Positions 4,741 through 12,736 of a stretch of DNA of 64,000 bases are shown here, piece by piece. Location: contig NZ_PWAA01000007.1 of NCBI RefSeq assembly GCF_003031585.1, forward strand, positions 1-64,000, given 5' to 3'. The stretch's first letter is position 1, and the number at the start of each line of letters is the position of its first letter. Source of the stretch: Thalassobius sp. I31.1 (GTDB taxonomy: Bacteria > Pseudomonadota > Alphaproteobacteria > Rhodobacterales > Rhodobacteraceae). The position numbers were made by a program, and so were the translations under genes. A model generated the notes under the pieces. That model was given only the letters and a program-made list of their open reading frames with translations, searched no databases and had not been told where the DNA came from.

Positions 4741-4926
4741 TCAGTTCGGTTCAGATTTCAGGTCATCGGGCCCCACACGATCCAGGACGAAAAGCATCAG
4801 CTCAAGTGTCTTCTTTTCATTCGTGGTGATGACGGGCTTATCAATCAACCGCACGATTCTATTACGTTCGGATTGCCAGTGATCAAAAAAATCCACTAAA
4901 TCTCTGACGGGTTCTTGTTGTGGCAT
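4741..4926 (-). CDS. hypothetical 61-residue protein
   Basis: I do not recognise this small protein. It is charged and soluble, with no membrane segment or signal peptide; the central part (NRIVRLIDKPVITTNEKK) looks helical. Reasons to believe it is real: a ribosome site GGTGGAGA stands 6 bases before the ATG, and a rho-independent terminator follows 24 bases after the stop. It is a monocistronic unit between the hydroxyproline operon promoter and the divergent regulator gene at 5060. A small regulatory protein is possible, but nothing in the sequence shows it. Confidence 0.5.
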   Translation of the reverse strand: MPQQEPVRDLVDFFDHWQSERNRIVRLIDKPVITTNEKKTLELMLFVLDRVGPDDLKSEPN

Positions 4927-5059: not shown

Positions 5060-6700
5060 ATGGGTGTTTGCCTGGAGGTTTCTCTTTTTGGCACATGCGC
5101 TGTGTGTTTGCAGGACCGTCCGCCGCGTGAAATTCGTGGGGCGAAACACAGGGCGTTGATTGCGATCCTTGCGACGGCGCCCTTGGGGCGGCGGACGCGG
5201 ACCTATCTTCAGAATACATTGTGGGGGTATGCGGGCTATGACAGCGGCCATCAGAACCTGCGCCGGGCTCTGTCTGATCTGCGCAAACTATTTGGTGATC
5301 ATTTTGATACGCTGTTTCGCACCACAAATACCGACATTGAGCTTGATCTGGCTCAGGTGCGGTTCACCGGGGATCCGGGGCAAGGGCTGTTTCTGGAAGA
5401 TCTGAACGTGCGGGAAGCCCCATTTCAGGAATGGGTCGACAGCATTCGCACGAACCCGGATCAGATCTTTGCGCTGTATCGCCATGCACCTGTGTCCAGC
5501 CTGCGCCGCCCGCGCCCCTGTGTGACCATGCTGCCTCTGCGTCAGATGGGCAATGATCCTGGGCTTGCGGCGCTGGGGGACTGGATCAGTGAACATTGCT
5601 GCCGCATCCTGTCGCGGTCGCGCTTTATCAATGTGATTTCACATCTGTCGGGTCGTGCTGCCGGGGCGGCCGGAACGCCAATCACCACGTTAAGCGAAAC
5701 TCTGGGGGTGGATTATCTGACCACCGGTTTTCTGCGTCCCTCGCGTCAGGGATTTATCTGTGATGTGGATTTCATCGAAGCGGCCAGCGGCCAGATCATC
5801 TGGAGCCGCAGTTTTGAGGCCCGCAGTTTTGCCGATCTGACGGAAACCGCGCTTGAGATTGATAAAATTGCCAGGGGCGTTGCCCGCTCTATCGCGGATT
5901 CAGCGATTGAAACTGTGCGCAGTCAGCGCATTGATGAGATTTCTGATCACAATCTGATTGTTGCCGGGGTATCGATGATGCACCGGGCAACTATGCGTGA
6001 TTTCCTGAAGTCGCGGGAATATCTGCTGGAGGCCAGCGAACGCCTGTCCCATTCCGCAGATGCCCATGCCTGGCTGGGGAAATGGTATGTTCTCAATGTG
6101 ATGAAAGGCTATTCCATTGATCTGGCCCATGACACCCAGCGAGCAGTTGATTGCACGGCGCGGGCACTGGATACAGACCCGGAAGCAAGCCTTGGCCTGA
6201 CCATTGATGGCTTTGCCAATAACAACCTGCTGAATGACTTTGAGACCGCAGAAAAGCGGTTTGATGCGGCGCTCGATATCAATCCGAATGAAAGCCTGGC
6301 CTGGCTTTTGCGGGGGTCGCTGAAAGCTTTTGCGGATGATGGTGAAGAAGCGGTGCGTTCAAATGAACAGGCCCGCCGCCTGTCCCCGATTGATCCGTTT
6401 CTTTATTATTACGACAGCCTGGCCAGCACCGCCTATATTGCGGCGGATCAGTTTGAAGAGGCTCTGAAACATGCGGAACAGTCGCTGGCTGTGAACAACC
6501 GACATCTGTCGACGCATCGAGCGCGCATTACCGCGTTGCATTTTCTGGATCGCCCGGAAGAAGCAAAGGCCGCCGCGCAGGAGCTTCTGCGCTATTGGCC
6601 AGGATATGGTTTATCAAAATACCGGAGCAACCATCCGGTGTCTCAACACAAATTGGGGCGGCGTGCGCTGACGGCCATGTCTGCTTCCGGCATTTCTTAA
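5060..6700 (+). CDS. SARP-like winged-helix regulator with TolB/FlgO-like and TPR regions
   Basis: 546 residues. Residues 5-100 resemble a SARP/BTAD-type winged helix (LFGTCAV, then RGAKHRALIAILA, NLRRALSDLRKLFGD). Residues 150-290 resemble the TolB/FlgO-like domain of CadC/adenylate-cyclase-associated regulators (VTMLPLRQMG, LGVDYLTTGFLR, SGQIIWSRSFEA). Residues 310-530 are TPR-like helices (ETAEKRFDAALDINPNE, FEEALKHAEQSLAVN). No cyclase catalytic domain, signal peptide or membrane span is seen, so it is probably a cytoplasmic DNA-binding protein with a protein- or ligand-sensing C-terminal half. Start chosen for GGGGAG about 9 bases upstream. It heads a cassette: 30 bases on is a PAP2-fold enzyme, then a protease. 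Ligand and target unknown. Confidence 0.75.
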   Translation: MGVCLEVSLFGTCAVCLQDRPPREIRGAKHRALIAILATAPLGRRTRTYLQNTLWGYAGYDSGHQNLRRALSDLRKLFGDHFDTLFRTTNTDIELDLAQVRFTGDPGQGLFLEDLNVREAPFQEWVDSIRTNPDQIFALYRHAPVSSLRRPRPCVTMLPLRQMGNDPGLAALGDWISEHCCRILSRSRFINVISHLSGRAAGAAGTPITTLSETLGVDYLTTGFLRPSRQGFICDVDFIEAASGQIIWSRSFEARSFADLTETALEIDKIARGVARSIADSAIETVRSQRIDEISDHNLIVAGVSMMHRATMRDFLKSREYLLEASERLSHSADAHAWLGKWYVLNVMKGYSIDLAHDTQRAVDCTARALDTDPEASLGLTIDGFANNNLLNDFETAEKRFDAALDINPNESLAWLLRGSLKAFADDGEEAVRSNEQARRLSPIDPFLYYYDSLASTAYIAADQFEEALKHAEQSLAVNNRHLSTHRARITALHFLDRPEEAKAAAQELLRYWPGYGLSKYRSNHPVSQHKLGRRALTAMSASGIS

Positions 6701-6730
6701 AACAACAATCTAACTATAGGGGAAAAGATT

Positions 6731-7795
6731 ATGGCACAGTCAGGTGGTATTGGCGGAATCGGCGGCATTGGTGGCATCGGAGGTATCGGTGGAATAGGGG
6801 GCATCGGTGGAATGACCGGCCTGGGTGGTTTCCTGGGGGCTGGCGACACTGGCGGTCTGCAAGGCACTGCGGAAAGCCTTCTGCATCGCGTTGGAAATGG
6901 CGTTGTGCCAGCAGGGGATGCGCTGGATTATAATCAGACAGTGAATAATGATCGCTGGGCTGCCTGGGTGCGCGGGTCTCTTTATCTCAGCGAATTTCTG
7001 TCCCAGGTCGGCTATTCTGCCGGGTCGGACACTGCACCTGCGATAACGTTGTCTTTTGCCGGGAATGATCTGGTGACGCTGGATCGGCCATCAGATGCGC
7101 TTCTGGCAGATCAATGCGTGCTTGTGCAGAATTACGCGGATCTGCGGGCAGATCGCACGGCTGAGATTATCTCGCAACTGGGCTTTCCAACCGAATATTT
7201 CGCCATGATTCTGGGGCTGCACGCGGGGCAACATGCAAAGACCTTTGAACTGATCACAGTCACCCAGGTGATGGCTGCGCATATGGCGATGATTGCGAAA
7301 CATGCGTTGGCAATCCGCCGCCCGGACCAGCTTGACGGGCGCATTCAGCCGATGATCCCGACGCCAGGCCACGGCAGTTTCCCATCCGCCCATGCGACTG
7401 AAGCCTATGCCGTGATGACCGTGATGGAAGGGCTGACCGGCAGCTGGGGCAGTTTTAAGGACCAGGCCGATCGCATGAAGATGCTGCGCGGCCTGGCGGA
7501 ACGGATTGCGGTGAATCGCACAGTCGCCGGTGTGCATTTCCCGATCGACAGCTGGGCCGGGGCTGCGCTTGGCACAGCTTTGGGGCAGGTTGTGCTGCAG
7601 CTTTGCGGTCAGGCCGGTGCAAGCGCGGTACAGGCACTACAATACACCCCGGGCAATGATGATTTCAGCGATTATCAGTTCACGCAGCAGGCGGCCGCGC
7701 ATGGTCTGCAACAAGGCGCGACGTTTAGTGTTTCGGCAACAGATCACTTCAGCTGGATCTGGGAAAAGGCCCTGGCTGAAACTCAGAAAGTCTGA
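6731..7795 (+). CDS. PAP2/vanadium-haloperoxidase-fold protein with N-terminal Gly-Gly-Ile repeat
   Basis: 354 residues. The three-part anion-binding motif of the PAP2 and vanadium haloperoxidase superfamily is complete: Lys190 with six residues to Arg197-Pro198, PSAH at 218-221 (His221), and Arg263-x5-His269-x3-Asp273. This supports phosphatase or haloperoxidase chemistry but does not separate them. Residues 5-28 are seven Gly-Gly-Ile triplets and a Gly-Gly-Met, followed by a Gly-rich linker; no signal peptide or membrane helices are seen, unlike membrane PAP2 lipid phosphatases. The ribosome site is GGGGAAAAG. It lies 30 bases after the regulator gene and 8 before the protease gene, so all three are probably co-transcribed. 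The role of the Gly-rich start is unknown; protease processing is one idea. Confidence 0.78.
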   Translation: MAQSGGIGGIGGIGGIGGIGGIGGIGGMTGLGGFLGAGDTGGLQGTAESLLHRVGNGVVPAGDALDYNQTVNNDRWAAWVRGSLYLSEFLSQVGYSAGSDTAPAITLSFAGNDLVTLDRPSDALLADQCVLVQNYADLRADRTAEIISQLGFPTEYFAMILGLHAGQHAKTFELITVTQVMAAHMAMIAKHALAIRRPDQLDGRIQPMIPTPGHGSFPSAHATEAYAVMTVMEGLTGSWGSFKDQADRMKMLRGLAERIAVNRTVAGVHFPIDSWAGAALGTALGQVVLQLCGQAGASAVQALQYTPGNDDFSDYQFTQQAAAHGLQQGATFSVSATDHFSWIWEKALAETQKV

Positions 7796-7803
7796 GGTGT
7801 ATC

Positions 7804-9804
7804 ATGTCTGTTTTATCTGACCATGGCCCGACAGAGGGGCCATATGAACGCTGGGTTTTTTCCGAAACCCATGGGCGGCCTTATGCTTTCCCGTCGATTG
7901 CGGCGGGGGGCACGGGAATTTATTCAGCCCTGATGGAAGAGGGGGGCAACCCTGCCGATCTGAATTACGCAAATCTGCGGATCCCGCCGCTTTGGAACCC
8001 TGGCAGTGTGCAGCCAGAAATCACGCCTTTTGCTTTTCGCGATGCCGTAACACCCGCCACCCCCGGTGCTGGTCTGCGCTATCGCCTGAACTTTCCGGTG
8101 CCGGTAGATACCTGGACCGGGGATTACCAGAAGGCGGATGATCCCGCCGGTTGGGCGCCGCCTGCGGTTCAACCAAGTGCAATTGTTGCGGTGATTGATG
8201 ATGCCATCCCCTTTGCCAACCGGGCATTCCTGGGCAGTGACGGCAAAACGCGGATCAGCCATTGCTGGCTGCAGGCTGGAATTGCTGTGGATCGTGCGCC
8301 GGTGCCTTTAGGCCGGGAATATACCAATGGTGCGATTGATCAGCTGCGGCAGGATACTCCGTCTGATGAAAACCGTCTGTACCAGCAGGCCGGTGCGGTT
8401 GATCCAGATATGGTCGAGCTTGGCGGTCATCTGAAACGGCACGGCACCCATGGCAGTCATATTCTGGGGCTTGCGGCGGGGAATACGTCGCTGTTCACCG
8501 GAGATTCCCAGGGCGATGACATTCAGATTATCGCCGTGCAGATGCCCAACACCATCGCCTGGGATACATCCGGGTTTGGTAAGGAAATGTATATGCTGTC
8601 GGCGCTGCATTACGTTTTTGAACGGGCGCGGCGGATTGCGGATCACTTTGGCGTTGATGAACTGCCGCTGATTGTGAATTTGTCTTATGGCTGGGGTGCG
8701 GGGCGTCATGACGGACAATCGCCAATGGAAATCGCGATTGAAGATCTGCTTGAAAAACGTCAGGCTGTGCAGCCCAAAACTGCGATTGTCATGCCTATGG
8801 GCAATGGCTTTACTGATAAGATGCACGCGCGGATCAGTGAGACGGATTTTGGCGGTAAGAAATACAACATCGGCTGGCAGGTGCAGCCGGATGACAATAC
8901 GTCAAGCTACCTGGAACTTTGGTTTCCCGAAGGATTTGATCCTGCAAAATACAGGCTGACCCTGAAACCACCGCCCGGCTACAGCCTGGATCAGAAGGCT
9001 GTGCTGAAGATCCGGGGCAGTGATTCCGTTCAGTTTAGGGACGTTCATATGGGTGGCGAGGTGGTCGGGCAGATGTCTGCGGATCACAGCCGGGGCAATC
9101 GCTGGCGTTTTATGCTGGCTCTGATCCCGTCGACCTATTGTGCGGATCAGTCCCGTAGCGCCCCTGCCGGGCGCTGGACGGTGAAACTGCGCCGCAAAGG
9201 CAATGCGCCGGATATCCCAAAAGGGGATGACCTGCTGATCTGGGTACAGCGCGATGATGATCCGGCGATGTTGCAGAGCCGCGGACGGCAGAGCTATCTG
9301 GTCAAACCGCGCAAACAGGGTTCAGAGATCACACAACCGCCGTACCAGAAGTATAAAGATGAGATCCCGGGGATTTCCGGTTTTGGGTCTATGAACGCTG
9401 TGGCGTCCTCTTCGCGGACCACGCGGGTCAGTGGCTATGTGCAACATAATAAGCGGCCTGCCGACTATGCGGGCAGTGGTCGCCTGCATGTGCAGGAGAA
9501 ACAGGATCCGGCACCTGTGGGTGCGCAAACCCTGATCGTCGCCTGTTCTGATCAAAGCCCATCCAGTCCCGGCATTCCGTCAACCGGTGTTCTGTCGGGG
9601 TCGCGCACGCGGCTTGTGGGCACAAGTGCTGCGGCCCCAGCGGTGGCGCGGCTGATGGTGCTGAATGCGGCGGCGGGGCGTGATCTGACTGATGGGCTCA
9701 ATAGCACTGCCGCGCTTTACAGGTCGGAAAAAGACAATGGAAATACCCAGGCGCAACACAAAGCCCGGATGGGGGATTTCACGGCGTCACCTGTCACGCG
9801 GTGA
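7804..9804 (+). CDS. subtilisin-like (S8) serine protease
   Basis: 666 residues. The S8 catalytic triad is readable: Asp132 in VAVIDDA, His213 in RHGTHGSH, and Ser608 in GTSAAAPAVARL; MPMGNGF is a likely oxyanion-hole region. Between His and Ser lies an insert of several hundred residues, partly beta-rich (about 360-500), much longer than in plain subtilisins. No signal peptide or pro-peptide is evident, so it acts in the cytosol or leaves by a non-Sec route. It starts 8 bases after the PAP2-fold gene and is followed by a strong terminator. The natural substrate is unknown; the neighbouring Gly-rich protein or the TPR regulator are candidates because of linkage only. Confidence 0.82.
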   Translation: MSVLSDHGPTEGPYERWVFSETHGRPYAFPSIAAGGTGIYSALMEEGGNPADLNYANLRIPPLWNPGSVQPEITPFAFRDAVTPATPGAGLRYRLNFPVPVDTWTGDYQKADDPAGWAPPAVQPSAIVAVIDDAIPFANRAFLGSDGKTRISHCWLQAGIAVDRAPVPLGREYTNGAIDQLRQDTPSDENRLYQQAGAVDPDMVELGGHLKRHGTHGSHILGLAAGNTSLFTGDSQGDDIQIIAVQMPNTIAWDTSGFGKEMYMLSALHYVFERARRIADHFGVDELPLIVNLSYGWGAGRHDGQSPMEIAIEDLLEKRQAVQPKTAIVMPMGNGFTDKMHARISETDFGGKKYNIGWQVQPDDNTSSYLELWFPEGFDPAKYRLTLKPPPGYSLDQKAVLKIRGSDSVQFRDVHMGGEVVGQMSADHSRGNRWRFMLALIPSTYCADQSRSAPAGRWTVKLRRKGNAPDIPKGDDLLIWVQRDDDPAMLQSRGRQSYLVKPRKQGSEITQPPYQKYKDEIPGISGFGSMNAVASSSRTTRVSGYVQHNKRPADYAGSGRLHVQEKQDPAPVGAQTLIVACSDQSPSSPGIPSTGVLSGSRTRLVGTSAAAPAVARLMVLNAAAGRDLTDGLNSTAALYRSEKDNGNTQAQHKARMGDFTASPVTR

Positions 9805-9826
9805 TGAAATAATTTCCATATATTAA

Positions 9827-9854
9827 GGGCCCGTCAACATGTTGGCGGGCCTTT
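9827..9854 (+). terminator. terminator of the regulator-PAP2-protease cassette
   Basis: GGCCCGTCAAC and GTTGGCGGGCC form an 11-bp stem with one G-T pair, followed by TTTG. It starts 23 bases after the protease stop codon. Confidence 0.75.
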
Positions 9855-9876
9855 GTGCGTCCACTCGGTTTAGCGG

Positions 9877-9912
9877 GAATTACCTGTGAAAAAGAAATTT
9901 CACAGGTAATTC
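9877..9912. repeat. perfect 15-bp inverted repeat
   Basis: GAATTACCTGTGAAA (9877-9891) and its exact reverse complement TTTCACAGGTAATTC (9898-9912) flank a six-base loop, AAGAAA. There is no T-run after it on either strand, so it is not a standard terminator. The AT-rich perfect arms could be a protein-binding palindrome or an RNA hairpin. Confidence 0.7.
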
Positions 9913-9977
9913 ACTCTCAGTCTGTGCTGGGGTGACGTATGGTTAACTCAGATCCGAAGTGTTGATCTCTTCCTCTT

Positions 9978-10016
9978 CACCCGGGTTCGTCGGCCAGATT
10001 ATTTACTGTCCGGGTG
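9978..10016. other. 7-bp inverted repeat with 25-base loop
   Basis: CACCCGG (9978-9984) and CCGGGTG (10010-10016) are exact complements. It is the weakest of the four hairpins in this gap and is listed because of the company it keeps. Confidence 0.35.
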
Positions 10017-10113
10017 CTATTTAAATTCACCATGCGTGGTGCTTTTCATCATCTGCCTGCTTGTTGGGGCGCATATATAGATCGAAGTGTTTGGCACAAA
10101 TTTATTATATCTC

Positions 10114-10151
10114 CTGGTGGCTGCTCCATCCCATACTCCGGCAGCCACCAG
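10114..10151. other. perfect 11-bp inverted repeat (hairpin)
   Basis: CTGGTGGCTGC (10114-10124) and GCAGCCACCAG (10141-10151) form an 11-bp perfect stem around 16 bases. No T-run follows. Confidence 0.6.
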
Positions 10152-10170
10152 TCAGTTCCGTCACGAGTGA

Positions 10171-10197
10171 GACCGCAGGTTCTATGATCCTGCGGTC
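10171..10197 (+). terminator. 9-bp stem-loop with short T-run, overlaps end of Ldh2-type gene
   Basis: GACCGCAGG (10171-10179) and CCTGCGGTC (10189-10197) form a perfect stem followed by TTT on the plus strand. It overlaps the last codons of the minus-strand gene ending at 10182, so it would stop plus-strand transcripts leaving the hairpin region. Confidence 0.5.
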
Positions 10198-11210
10198 TTT
10201 ATCACGTCGCGGATCTGATCCAGCACGTCTGTTGCGGCATTCACCCCGTCCTGCATCGCGCGCGCGCGCATTTTCAGGCGGCCATCGCCGGGAATGCGTG
10301 CGTCACCATTGTCGATAATCTCGGCACTGATGCGGTTGATGTATTCATTGAACATCGGGTTGCCGAAGCGGTTGGGATCAATCGCGATTACGGTGGAACC
10401 GCCTTTGATGTTCAGCGCGCCATGGGCTTCGCGATCCTGGTTATCAACGGAAAGCGTGCCACCCGCCAGCGCCGCCCCCAGGACTTCAACAAGGAAAGCA
10501 ATCGCCGCGCCCTTATGTTCGCCGAAAGGCAGCAGGCTGCGGGTATCAAGGATTGCGTCGGGATCGGTGGTTTTGCTGCCATCGGGGGCAAGTCCTGCGG
10601 GGTAGGGCAGGTGATGACCTTCGGCGGCGGCCATGCGGATATCCATCAGCGCGACCATGGAAGATGCCTGATCCCAGACGATTGGTGCCTGGCCTTCACG
10701 CGGGCAGGCAAAGGCCATGGGGTTTGTGCCGAAAACCGGACGCGTGCCGCCCTGGGGCACCACCATGGACAGTGAGTTGATCACGCCAATAGCTACAAGA
10801 CCGGCTTCGGCCAGGGGTTCCACATCAAAGCGAAGCCCGGCCAGGTGGTGACAGTTTTTGCAGGAAAAGGCGGCGATACCATTTGTCCGCGCCATTTCAA
10901 TCAGCTGATCATGGGCAAGACTGGCGGCGTGCTGGTAATACCCATTGTCCGCGTCCCCCTGCAAAGCCCCAGCCGCTGTACGGGTGACCACAGGTTTTGC
11001 ATCAGGGTTGGCATAGCCAGAGGTAAAGCTTTGCGCATAAACCGGCAGCATCCGCAAACCATGGCTGCGGGGGCCGTCGCGTTCAGACCGGGTGACGATG
11101 GCGGCAAGAACCATACGTGCTTCGTCACTGACACCGCAGGCGCGGAAGGTTTCATTCGCAAGGTCGCGCACCTGATCCAGGGAAAGATTTTCTGTGGCCT
11201 GATCGCCCAT
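10182..11210 (-). CDS. Ldh2-family reductase, probable 1-pyrroline-2-carboxylate/1-piperideine-2-carboxylate reductase
   Basis: 342 residues of the malate/L-lactate dehydrogenase type 2 (DpkA-like) family. The family SHG motif is present at about His50 (GPRSHGLRMLP), followed by MVVPQGGTRPVFGTNPMAFACP and FGEHKGAAIAFLVEVL. Members reduce cyclic imino acids (to L-proline or L-pipecolate) or 2-oxoacids with NAD(P)H. The imino-acid role is favoured because the dehydratase at 362-1384 would make 1-pyrroline-2-carboxylate. It is the last gene of a three-gene operon, 17 bases after the MttB-like gene. Malate, lactate or ureidoglycolate dehydrogenase activity cannot be excluded. Confidence 0.75.
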   Translation of the reverse strand: MGDQATENLSLDQVRDLANETFRACGVSDEARMVLAAIVTRSERDGPRSHGLRMLPVYAQSFTSGYANPDAKPVVTRTAAGALQGDADNGYYQHAASLAHDQLIEMARTNGIAAFSCKNCHHLAGLRFDVEPLAEAGLVAIGVINSLSMVVPQGGTRPVFGTNPMAFACPREGQAPIVWDQASSMVALMDIRMAAAEGHHLPYPAGLAPDGSKTTDPDAILDTRSLLPFGEHKGAAIAFLVEVLGAALAGGTLSVDNQDREAHGALNIKGGSTVIAIDPNRFGNPMFNEYINRISAEIIDNGDARIPGDGRLKMRARAMQDGVNAATDVLDQIRDVIKTAGS

Positions 11211-11227
11211 TCTGACACCTTTGGGTT

Positions 11228-12736
11228 TTACGTGCTGTATTCAGCCCGTTTCTTGGCGACAAATTCATCCAAAGCGCCGCGCTGGTCAACGGGCATTGGG
11301 GGCTGGATGTAATTATCAAGGATACGTTTTGCCTCGATATTGCCCACGACCTCGGCGGTTTTGGCGCCTTCGGCTTCCCATTGCTCAAAACTGTCGTTGT
11401 TTTGCAGCATGTTCATATGCAGCGGATGTTCGCGGGTGTGGTCGGTACCAAGGAAGTGGCCGCCGGGACCGACCTCTGCGATATCCCCCAGAAGCGCATC
11501 CAGGTTTTCTTCCTGAAGGCCCGTGAAGAAGCGATGGAAGTTCTCCAGTTGTTGGGAATCCTGCACCCATTTGGAATAGCTGACGCCAAGCGCGCCTTCG
11601 AGGAAACCGGCGGAATGCACGATGTAATTACAGCCCCCCAGCAGCACGGGCCACATGGTGTTGGCGGTGTCATATCCGGCTTGAAGATCGGGGGATTTGG
11701 AACCCGTCCACATGGTGCAGCTACGCCATGGCACGCGGTAAAATCGCGCCATTTGACCCACGAGCAGGTTCATGAGGCCGGGTTCCGGCGACCCCATCAT
11801 CGGCGCACCGGTTTTCATAGAAACACCCATGATCGCCACACCCAGAACCATCGGACAGCCTTTGCGGATGATCTGGCTGTATGCCATGCCAGCCAGGCTT
11901 TCCGCGATCAGAAGCGCAACGCCACCTTGCGGTGAAGCGGGTGTGCTGGCACCCGCTAGAACGAAGGGCGACAAAAGGCAGGGCTGGTTTGCGGCTGCAT
12001 AGACACGCAAACTTTCCAGCATGGTTTCATCCCAGACCAGCGGGGTGTTGCAGTTGAGAAGGGACGTCAGAACGACGTTCTGATCAACGAAATCCTCACC
12101 AAAAACGATCTGTGCCATCTTCACGGTATCCCGCGCGGCGGTTTCGGACAGAACGGACCCTTTTATTGGTTTGTCTGTCAGGGTCAGCGCGGCGTGGACC
12201 AGTTCCAGGTGACGTTCCGGTACGGGAACATCCTGGGGTTCAACAGGCAGGATGCCGGGCACATGCATGGCCTGGCTCATCTGCCCAAGTTTGAAGAAAT
12301 TATGGGCATCCGCCAGTTGTGACGGGCGGCGGGTGCCGTCCAGATCATAAACAAAGGGCGCGCCGTAAGCATTGGCGAAGATCGACTTCTTGCCGCCGAC
12401 GTCCACCGTGCGATCACCATTGCGGGCGTGCAATGTGTAGCTTTCCGGCACGGTGGAAATCAGATCCATCAGCATATCGCGGCCAATGCGCACCCGTTCG
12501 CCCTGCACGTCGGCCCCGGCGCGTTTCCAGTCGGCCAGAGCTATTGGGTCGCGGAATTCGATGCCTGTGGTTTCCAGGATCGTCATGGCAGCGTTGTGGA
12601 TTTTTTCCACACCTTCGGGGCCAAGCAGATCGATCGGACCAACGGCACGATTCAGGGTTGGCAGATATACCGGTGCGGGATTGGTGCGGGCAGCGACCCG
12701 GCTGGCGCGGCCACCGCGTTTACGAGGTTCAGACAT
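11228..12736 (-). CDS. MttB-family (non-pyrrolysine) trimethylamine/betaine methyltransferase homologue
   Basis: 502 residues, matching the MttB superfamily (IHNAAMTILETTGIEFRDP near the start; GCPMVLGVAIMGVSMKTGAP and YRVPWRSCTMWTGSKSPD further on). There is no in-frame amber codon, so it belongs to the non-pyrrolysine group. Known members of that group demethylate quaternary amines such as glycine betaine and proline betaine and pass the methyl to a corrinoid protein. No corrinoid protein is encoded in this window; the partner is instead a DMGDH-like protein with a folate-binding GcvT domain, 23 bases upstream. Good ribosome site (AGGAG). Substrate by context: a proline-type betaine (inference). 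Confidence 0.8.
   Translation of the reverse strand: MSEPRKRGGRASRVAARTNPAPVYLPTLNRAVGPIDLLGPEGVEKIHNAAMTILETTGIEFRDPIALADWKRAGADVQGERVRIGRDMLMDLISTVPESYTLHARNGDRTVDVGGKKSIFANAYGAPFVYDLDGTRRPSQLADAHNFFKLGQMSQAMHVPGILPVEPQDVPVPERHLELVHAALTLTDKPIKGSVLSETAARDTVKMAQIVFGEDFVDQNVVLTSLLNCNTPLVWDETMLESLRVYAAANQPCLLSPFVLAGASTPASPQGGVALLIAESLAGMAYSQIIRKGCPMVLGVAIMGVSMKTGAPMMGSPEPGLMNLLVGQMARFYRVPWRSCTMWTGSKSPDLQAGYDTANTMWPVLLGGCNYIVHSAGFLEGALGVSYSKWVQDSQQLENFHRFFTGLQEENLDALLGDIAEVGPGGHFLGTDHTREHPLHMNMLQNNDSFEQWEAEGAKTAEVVGNIEAKRILDNYIQPPMPVDQRGALDEFVAKKRAEYST

Follow-up and report, generated by a model that had tools for sequence, protein, structure and literature searches.

The DNA analysed here (the window) comprises 64,000 nucleotides, positions 1 to 64,000 of contig NZ_PWAA01000007.1 of Thalassobius sp. 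I31.1, and carries at 5060–9854 a cassette of three genes encoding a regulator (P0001), a PAP2-fold enzyme with an N-terminal peptide array (P0002) and a subtilisin-like protease (P0003). The strongest finding of the analysis was that the repeated unit of the array co-varies with the tetratricopeptide repeat (TPR) domain of the regulator. The three open reading frames (ORFs) all lie on the plus strand, and the gaps of 30 and 8 bases between them, reported in a first-pass annotation made from the sequence alone, were confirmed; a stable hairpin resembling an intrinsic terminator, followed by a short T run, lies after the third gene, in the place of the proposed common terminator. Two features had been overlooked in that annotation, namely the array, which occupies residues 5–27 of P0002, and a conserved small gene on the minus strand. 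The components of the locus are the following:

4741–4926, minus strand: small divergent ORF upstream of the regulator gene, 61 codons (61 amino acids), the fourth conserved component
5060–6700, plus strand: regulator P0001, 546 amino acids, with a winged helix at about 1–137, an alpha/beta middle domain at about 153–255 and TPR helices at 261–542
6731–7795, plus strand: soluble PAP2-fold enzyme P0002 with an N-terminal peptide array, 354 amino acids
6743–6811, plus strand: GGI array inside the P0002 gene, 7.7 copies of Gly-Gly-Ile
7804–9804, plus strand: S8 (subtilisin-like) protease P0003, leaderless, 666 amino acids, with Asp132, His216, Asn334 and Ser608
9824–9854, plus strand: hairpin of 14 bp resembling an intrinsic terminator, folding energy −21.9 kcal/mol (z −3.2)

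A scan of named genomes gave 585 confirmed candidates, of which the best 80 were kept, so close relatives are favoured in this sample. Of these 80 loci, 77 had the regulator and 79 the protease, and where a partner was missing (the regulator in L071, L117 and L131, the protease in L101), the locus lay in all four cases at a contig border. A second sample consisted of 81 PAP2 entries (L195–L274), of which 77 had a regulator at most 1.5 kb away and 64 an adjacent or fused S8 protease; strand and gene order were variable, nonetheless the partners stayed together. Among the first 27 relatives fetched, an array was present in all 23 loci from L032 to L054 and a regulator in 22 of these, while L055–L058 had no array and no match to the regulator or the protease (L055 and L057 are near contig ends). 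The first-pass annotation had regarded the three genes as a unit, an idea that it tied to their adjacency elsewhere, and the families indeed stay neighbours in other genomes. Of the 78 loci scanned, the window among them, 62 have a related small ORF at the corresponding position, thus the unit has a fourth, very small member. Its 61-amino acid product matched nothing up to E 1 in Pfam, NCBIfam or PADLOC. In Phaeobacter, this position is occupied by a 69-codon gene without detectable similarity to the 61-codon ORF of the window.

The stretch previously described as Gly-rich is present, but its nature had been missed: it is a perfect, lineage-specific peptide array that varies together with the TPR domain. 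In P0002, the array contains seven full units, all different in codons, and was modelled with predicted local distance difference test (pLDDT) values of ~31–40, suggesting that it is probably disordered. Among 255 PAP2 entries, representing 246 distinct PAP2 proteins, 233 of the distinct proteins carried a perfect array of a short peptide, and 107 distinct units of 2–4 residues were found (three residues in 171 arrays, four in 46 and two in 16), with copy numbers of 3.7–20.5 (median 9). The many units at the corresponding place in relatives included GNA, GNQ, GWT, ATM, NVG, NSY, GQH, DAR and HAG, and further examples were SGGY, EAV, GGF, NR and ENW. No array was scored in 13 of the 246 proteins. 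It was absent from L055–L058, L225 and L257, and short or irregular in L205, L219, L224, L240 and L320; in L090 (Aliiruegeria) the GGF array and the PAP2 body are in different frames through a frameshift or a sequencing error, and L037 was counted as array-less only through a wrong ORF, an ATM array being present there.

At the DNA level the codons of the arrays are scrambled, including TCN/AGY switches of serine. The arrays comprised 2141 perfect units versus 17 internal imperfect ones, and the additional synonymous codon variants numbered 1347. Five or more full units were present in 97 arrays, and here the DNA of adjacent units was less alike than in controls, in which synonymous codons were shuffled within each array (mean z −1.16, with 21 arrays under −2 and 2 over +2), while a slightly raised likeness was seen between units two apart. 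The combination of a perfect peptide and scrambled codons implies that the peptide itself is under selection, which keeps it exact over long times, yet the unit switches. The Hydrogenophaga enzymes with the units SGGY and SAGV are 95% identical outside the array at a fourfold-site divergence of 27%, and the 12 Phaeobacter loci read of 21 records all have the unit NSF in 5–7 copies, with differences limited to copy number and synonymous sites. Fresh-looking arrays, that is, those with an adjacent DNA identity of at least 0.95, amounted to 6 of 233. Nearly identical DNA units were seen in L112 (HAS, 0.96), L131 (GGMS, 1.00) and L134 (SGGY, 0.95), whose arrays are, judging from this likeness, likely newly made. 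When the window and 107 loci were scanned in all six frames, no array was detected beyond the PAP2 array itself or overlapping frames, which ruled out the same array in other genes of these loci. Of the 26 genomes of the same family listed with two or more matches, 24 were fetched, and the units differed in all 22 genomes with at least two scorable arrays (the other two had one scorable array each), although this point is weak because the copies within a genome belong to different subfamilies.

The co-variation was measured in a first set of 89 loci by comparing disjoint nearest pairs with different or the same unit. At a PAP2 identity of at least 0.7, the TPR identity minus the winged-helix identity was −0.087 in nine unit-different pairs and +0.042 in 14 unit-same pairs (one-sided p 1.9e-4), and the effect was similar at ≥0.6 (13 and 17 pairs, p 1.9e-4) and ≥0.5 (16 and 17 pairs, p 4.3e-4). 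Neither the PAP2 core nor the middle domain showed a significant effect of the unit in this set. Along the regulator, the ratio of changes in unit-different to unit-same pairs, calculated per 15 residues, was 0.6–2.6 up to residue 300 and 1.1–5.1, mostly above 2.5, beyond it. On trees of 74 loci, the TPR tree needed 34 unit changes (minimum 22) versus 36–40 on the others, a small margin. When Hydrogenophaga was removed, the values were −0.069 in eight unit-different and +0.042 in 14 unit-same pairs at 0.7 (p 9.4e-5), with p 3.5e-4 at 0.6 and 1.4e-3 at 0.5, and the change ratios were 1.1, 1.4 and 2.7 for residues 1–137, 138–300 and 301–546, respectively.

A second set was obtained from Hydrogenophaga, for which 40 loci were fetched and 39 used (L302 was excluded, its regulator being lost at a contig end). 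Columns with a strong unit excess were concentrated in the TPR domain (32 of 244), compared with 0 of 156 in the winged helix, 0 of 141 in the middle domain, 1 of 332 in PAP2 and 0 of 690 in the protease, and no unit effect on the protease was detected in this set. The TPR tree had 18 unit changes (minimum 15) versus 23–26 on four others. When winged helix and middle domain were averaged to serve as the baseline, p was 0.006 at a PAP2 identity of at least 0.8. The strongest positions of the two sets overlapped in 12 cases versus 3.2 expected. In pairs with a PAP2 identity of 0.8–0.9, the amino-acid difference of the TPR domain was 0.211 for 76 unit-different and 0.116 for 16 unit-same pairs, while its fourfold-site difference was practically equal (0.454 and 0.461) and the other regions differed little between the two kinds of pairs.

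Several results weigh against recognition of the array by the TPR domain. The protease of the first set also diverged in unit-different pairs, with a smaller effect (p 0.025, 0.0026 and 0.0016 at a PAP2 identity of 0.7, 0.6 and 0.5), which persisted after the removal of Hydrogenophaga (p 0.0081, 0.00083 and 0.0011), so the effect in that set is not that of the TPR domain alone. The two sets were not fully separate, since the first one also contained four of the 39 genomes of the Hydrogenophaga set (the genomes of L128, L134, L135 and L137), and L134/L135 was one of its nine unit-different pairs. In Hydrogenophaga, the pre-set disjoint-pair test was not significant (13 different versus 6 same pairs, −0.055 versus −0.005, p 0.36); in a regression over all pairs with a PAP2 identity of ≥0.7, the same-unit effect was 0.094, matched by none of 2000 label shuffles, which, however, ignore relatedness, and the winged-helix/middle-domain baseline gave p 0.076 at ≥0.6. 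Without the shared genomes, the overlap of the strongest positions dropped to 8 versus 3.0 expected (p 0.005), and inside residues 457–546 there was no excess (8 versus 7.2, p 0.43); thus, the domain-level result stands, while the residue-level result is weak. Moreover, the TPR-coding end adjoins the array in these gene orders, so the exchange of one DNA segment could mimic co-variation. Above a PAP2 identity of 0.9 (15 different and 6 same pairs), the fourfold-site difference was 0.416 versus 0.268 in the TPR domain and 0.368 versus 0.287 in the winged helix, and the middle domain differed somewhat too. The raised synonymous divergence of the TPR domain in these closest pairs suggests that in some of the switches a single DNA segment with both the array and the TPR end may have been exchanged. 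No effect was seen among other architectures (17 different versus 7 same pairs at 0.5, p 0.57; 4 versus 6 at 0.6, p 0.91; 1 versus 3 at 0.7, p 1), a failure due to too few close pairs, and two small genera yielded no further close pairs. Considering that the TPR domain diverged upon a unit switch in both sets, it probably recognises the array.

The AlphaFold2 model of P0001 (mean pLDDT 87.7) consists of a winged helix, an alpha/beta domain and TPR helices, and the best Foldseek matches are TPR superhelices, which agrees with the TPRs noted before, while Pfam detected TPR only below threshold. The description of the regulator as SARP-like was only partly right: SARP regulators combine a winged helix with a BTAD domain, and the winged helix was modelled in P0001, but BTAD was absent among the Pfam matches up to E 1. 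Similarly, a FlgO/TolB-like match was obtained with the relative from L049, but the part of the window protein that had been called TolB/FlgO-like gave none. An NCBIfam match to HilA/EilA (E 3e-6, below the cut-off) spanned only the TPR part. Like the HilA/CadC-like regulators, P0001 has a winged helix plus TPR, but it differs from them in that no membrane segment was seen when looked for and that its TPR domain is tied to an adjacent peptide array. Among 177 regulators checked, five had a borderline hydrophobic stretch. The relatives in Phaeobacter are annotated as winged helix-turn-helix proteins. The regulator of L255 has a nucleotide-cyclase domain (Guanylate_cyc, E 2.6e-10) in place of the winged helix; by eye, the regulators of L265 and L267 resemble this form, and so does that of L239, which gave no cyclase match up to E 0.01. 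Proteins of 936–999 amino acids facing the array-PAP2 gene were observed in L239 (5244–8240, minus strand) and L265 (1568–4375, plus strand), with no Pfam match up to E 0.1.

P0002 belongs to the PAP2 superfamily according to its Pfam match (PAP2, E 1.1e-10), its modelled fold (pLDDT 89.1) and the conserved Lys/Arg, His and Arg/His/Asp set. The residues of this set, Lys190, Arg197, His221, Arg263, His269 and Asp273, had been assigned correctly and were invariant in 48 aligned sequences. The metal-site motif is common to haloperoxidases and PAP2 phosphatases. Foldseek placed class A acid phosphatases on top (from E 3.6e-6, 7f17 being the best and 1d2t lower), followed by the haloperoxidases 4usz (E 4.8e-3), 4cit (8.3e-3) and 1vni (0.15). 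Thus, by its modelled fold, P0002 resembles class A acid phosphatases more than haloperoxidases, which weakened the vanadium haloperoxidase reading. A match to a well-known membrane lipid phosphatase, which the first-pass annotation had named as an argument against the cassette, was not found. P0002 differs from the class A acid phosphatases, with which it has the fold and the Lys/Arg/His/Arg/His/Asp set in common, in the peptide array, the extra N-terminal part, the position beside a TPR regulator and usually a protease, and in that no export signal was seen.

P0003 matched Peptidase_S8 in Pfam (E 4.1e-5) and has the Asp-His-Ser triad and the oxyanion Asn of this family. In an alignment of 46 proteases, Asp132 was conserved in at least 90% and His216, Asn334 and Ser608 were invariant; hence Asp132 and Ser608 of the triad proposed earlier were retained, but His213 has to be replaced by His216, the invariant His of the HG[ST]H motif. 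The nearest solved relatives by sequence are the Csp germination proteases, also of the S8 family, to which the likeness is weak (E 0.012; NCBIfam CspBA, E 4.6e-6, far under the cut-off). Unlike these, P0003 has a large insertion between His and Ser, an array-bearing enzyme as its partner and no known spore context. Six downstream proteins were scanned in loci without S8: papain-family C1 was detected above the cut-off in L233 and L235 and below it in L204 and L231, and of the remaining two, one gave a weak C39 match and one no match. A second class of loci has internal dipeptide arrays (NR, SR, NK) and another branch of S8 proteases. In L221, L224 and L241 the array, PAP2 and S8 form one long ORF, which starts with a twin-arginine-like motif; Pfam confirmed both domains within the fused ORF of L241. 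A periplasmic TPR domain in these fused forms was rejected, as no membrane segment was seen in their regulators. The papain-like proteases and the cyclase-type regulator indicate that output domain and protease type are exchangeable while array and TPR stay. In L061, the only such locus scanned, an S8 protease with PatG_D and PatG_C domains (9385–11553) lies beside the cassette, a domain combination as in cyanobactin macrocyclases; L062–L064 also match the protease model that hits this protein. It is a possible neighbour from the pathways of ribosomally synthesized and post-translationally modified peptides.

Relatives of the PAP2 protein, in counts that include some PAP2 proteins without the cassette, were present in 26 of 101 related genomes (E 1e-3), 131 of 394 genomes of the same family (E 1e-10) and 29 of 398 genomes of the phylum (E 1e-15), and within single genera in 52 of 67, 30 of 146 and 7 of 7 genomes (E 1e-40). 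The cassette keeps its flanks in the sister species. In many Phaeobacter strains it was observed on plasmids (L180, L182–L186, L189–L194), some of which are typed as conjugative. In L185 (Phaeobacter inhibens M647) the annotation divides the regulator into two parts and gives short versions of the PAP2 gene and those after it, and the cassette looks decayed in this record. A search of the open literature returned no description of such a system, which is weak evidence as most subscription papers are outside the reach of this search; as far as it goes, the component families are known and their union and the array are undescribed.

Conservation of the set, perfect arrays with scrambled codons, co-variation of unit and TPR domain, and conserved active sites are results of computation. 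In the interpretation we propose, the cassette would be a receptor–ligand system within the cell. The enzyme would bear a flexible tail in which one short peptide is repeated identically many times, the regulator would recognise the repeated unit with its TPR superhelix, and its N-terminal winged helix, or the nucleotide cyclase in at least one relative, would produce an output that depends on whether the unit is bound. The protein with the array is probably cut by the partner protease, which is of the S8 type in the window and papain-like in some relatives, and the ligand would thereby be released or destroyed. The unit could be almost any 2–4 residues, provided that all copies are identical and match the TPR domain, and this matching could insulate paralogous systems in one cell. 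That the TPR domain binds the array directly and that the protease cleaves it are inferences, as are the direction in which the signal runs and the substrate of the enzyme. The divergence of the protease in the first set would be consistent with its touching the array, while the Hydrogenophaga set was without such an effect. The twin-arginine-like motif of the fused forms fits a purely cytoplasmic encounter poorly and counts against the proposal. Taken as a whole, this mechanism, with the TPR domain as reader of the array and the array-bearing protein as target of the protease, is somewhat better than an even guess. The sensor–enzyme–protease pathway conceived in the first-pass annotation is kept in this general form, without the haloperoxidase activity, which the fold disfavours, and without the defence role, for which PADLOC gave no match.

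A close known parallel is that of the RRNPP/RRNPPA systems (Rap, PlcR, AimR), where a TPR regulator is also encoded beside the gene of its short-peptide ligand. The cassette differs from these in belonging to Pseudomonadota instead of Bacillota, in the fusion of the array to a PAP2 enzyme, in the units of 2–4 residues, in having its own protease and in the lack of a secretion signal in the window. The DNA-binding domain of RRNPP receptors is different from that of the cassette regulator. P0001 contains TPRs according to its model and the Foldseek matches, as RRNPP receptors do, but with 546 amino acids it is outside the 250–500 amino acids given for such receptors (PMC10075063), and instead of a small secreted propeptide gene there is an array on the adjacent 354-amino acid enzyme without a hydrophobic signal. 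The array could accordingly be read as a multi-copy pheromone precursor, from which the protease frees di- to tetrapeptides acting as species-specific signals between or within cells, with the TPR regulator as their receptor. RRNPP receptors bind short peptides encoded next door according to PMC10075063, some propeptides hold several pheromones according to PMC11343458, and the repeated array, the nearby protease and the unit–TPR co-variation fit this explanation. Yeast offers a comparable case, the alpha-factor being processed by the subtilisin-like Kex2. However, when 177 PAP2 entries were checked, none had a hydrophobic segment ahead of the array and just four had a twin-arginine-like motif (in L098 upstream of the likely start), the units are shorter than known pheromones, and an intact enzyme with an invariant active site would be superfluous for a mere precursor, which makes a pheromone unlikely.

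A controlled toxin or defence effector, in which the regulator keeps the PAP2 enzyme inactive by way of the array until, upon a trigger, the tether is cut by the protease, would also explain a co-varying pair, as array and TPR would diversify like toxin and immunity partners, and it accords with protease partners from two unrelated families, with the differing units in all 22 genomes with at least two scorable arrays and with the plasmid copies in Phaeobacter. A defence island was rejected, as none of the four window proteins matched a PADLOC defence model up to E 1, and the unchanged flanks in the sister species, the occurrence of PAP2 relatives in 52 of 67 genomes of one genus and a scan of viral contigs, which gave just 10 weak relatives, also make such an effector rather improbable. 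If the array were a self-assembly segment, its identical repeats making enzyme molecules stick to their own kind, perfect periodicity, an arbitrary unit and different units in paralogues would be expected from homotypic contact, but the change of the TPR domain with the unit would be left unexplained, units from GGI to EAV, NR and ENW have no obvious common assembly chemistry and the array is probably disordered by its low-confidence model; we regard this as very unlikely. Neutral microsatellite expansion, in which slippage makes the arrays and recombination of the TPR end with the array mimics co-variation, draws on the few arrays fresh in DNA (6 of 233) and on the raised synonymous divergence of the TPR domain in the closest Hydrogenophaga pairs. 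It is already disfavoured and hardly credible, since adjacent units differ in codons beyond chance, 17 imperfect internal units stand against 1347 synonymous variants, the 12 Phaeobacter arrays vary just in synonymous sites and the number of copies, and the excess in the TPR domain is still present when synonymous divergence is equal.

Known signals of Pseudomonadota are typically small molecules according to PMC10075063, and if the TPR domain reads the array, this phylum would gain a peptide–receptor system. For protein evolution the arrays pose a puzzle, the unit being free between species and exact within each protein, and selection seems to favour repetition and the match to a partner over any given sequence. 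Tentatively, the cassettes may represent a widespread signalling class of Pseudomonadota, in which an enzyme carries a "barcode" of ~4–20 identical di- to tetrapeptides, a TPR reader specific for this barcode has a swappable output (winged helix or nucleotide cyclase) and a dedicated protease releases or erases the barcode. If so, the barcodes would drift to nearly any short sequence yet stay perfect within each protein, giving dozens to hundreds of mutually insulated channels, and recognition of the array by the TPR domain would provide a large set of matched peptide–receptor pairs, usable as a modular peptide-binding code.

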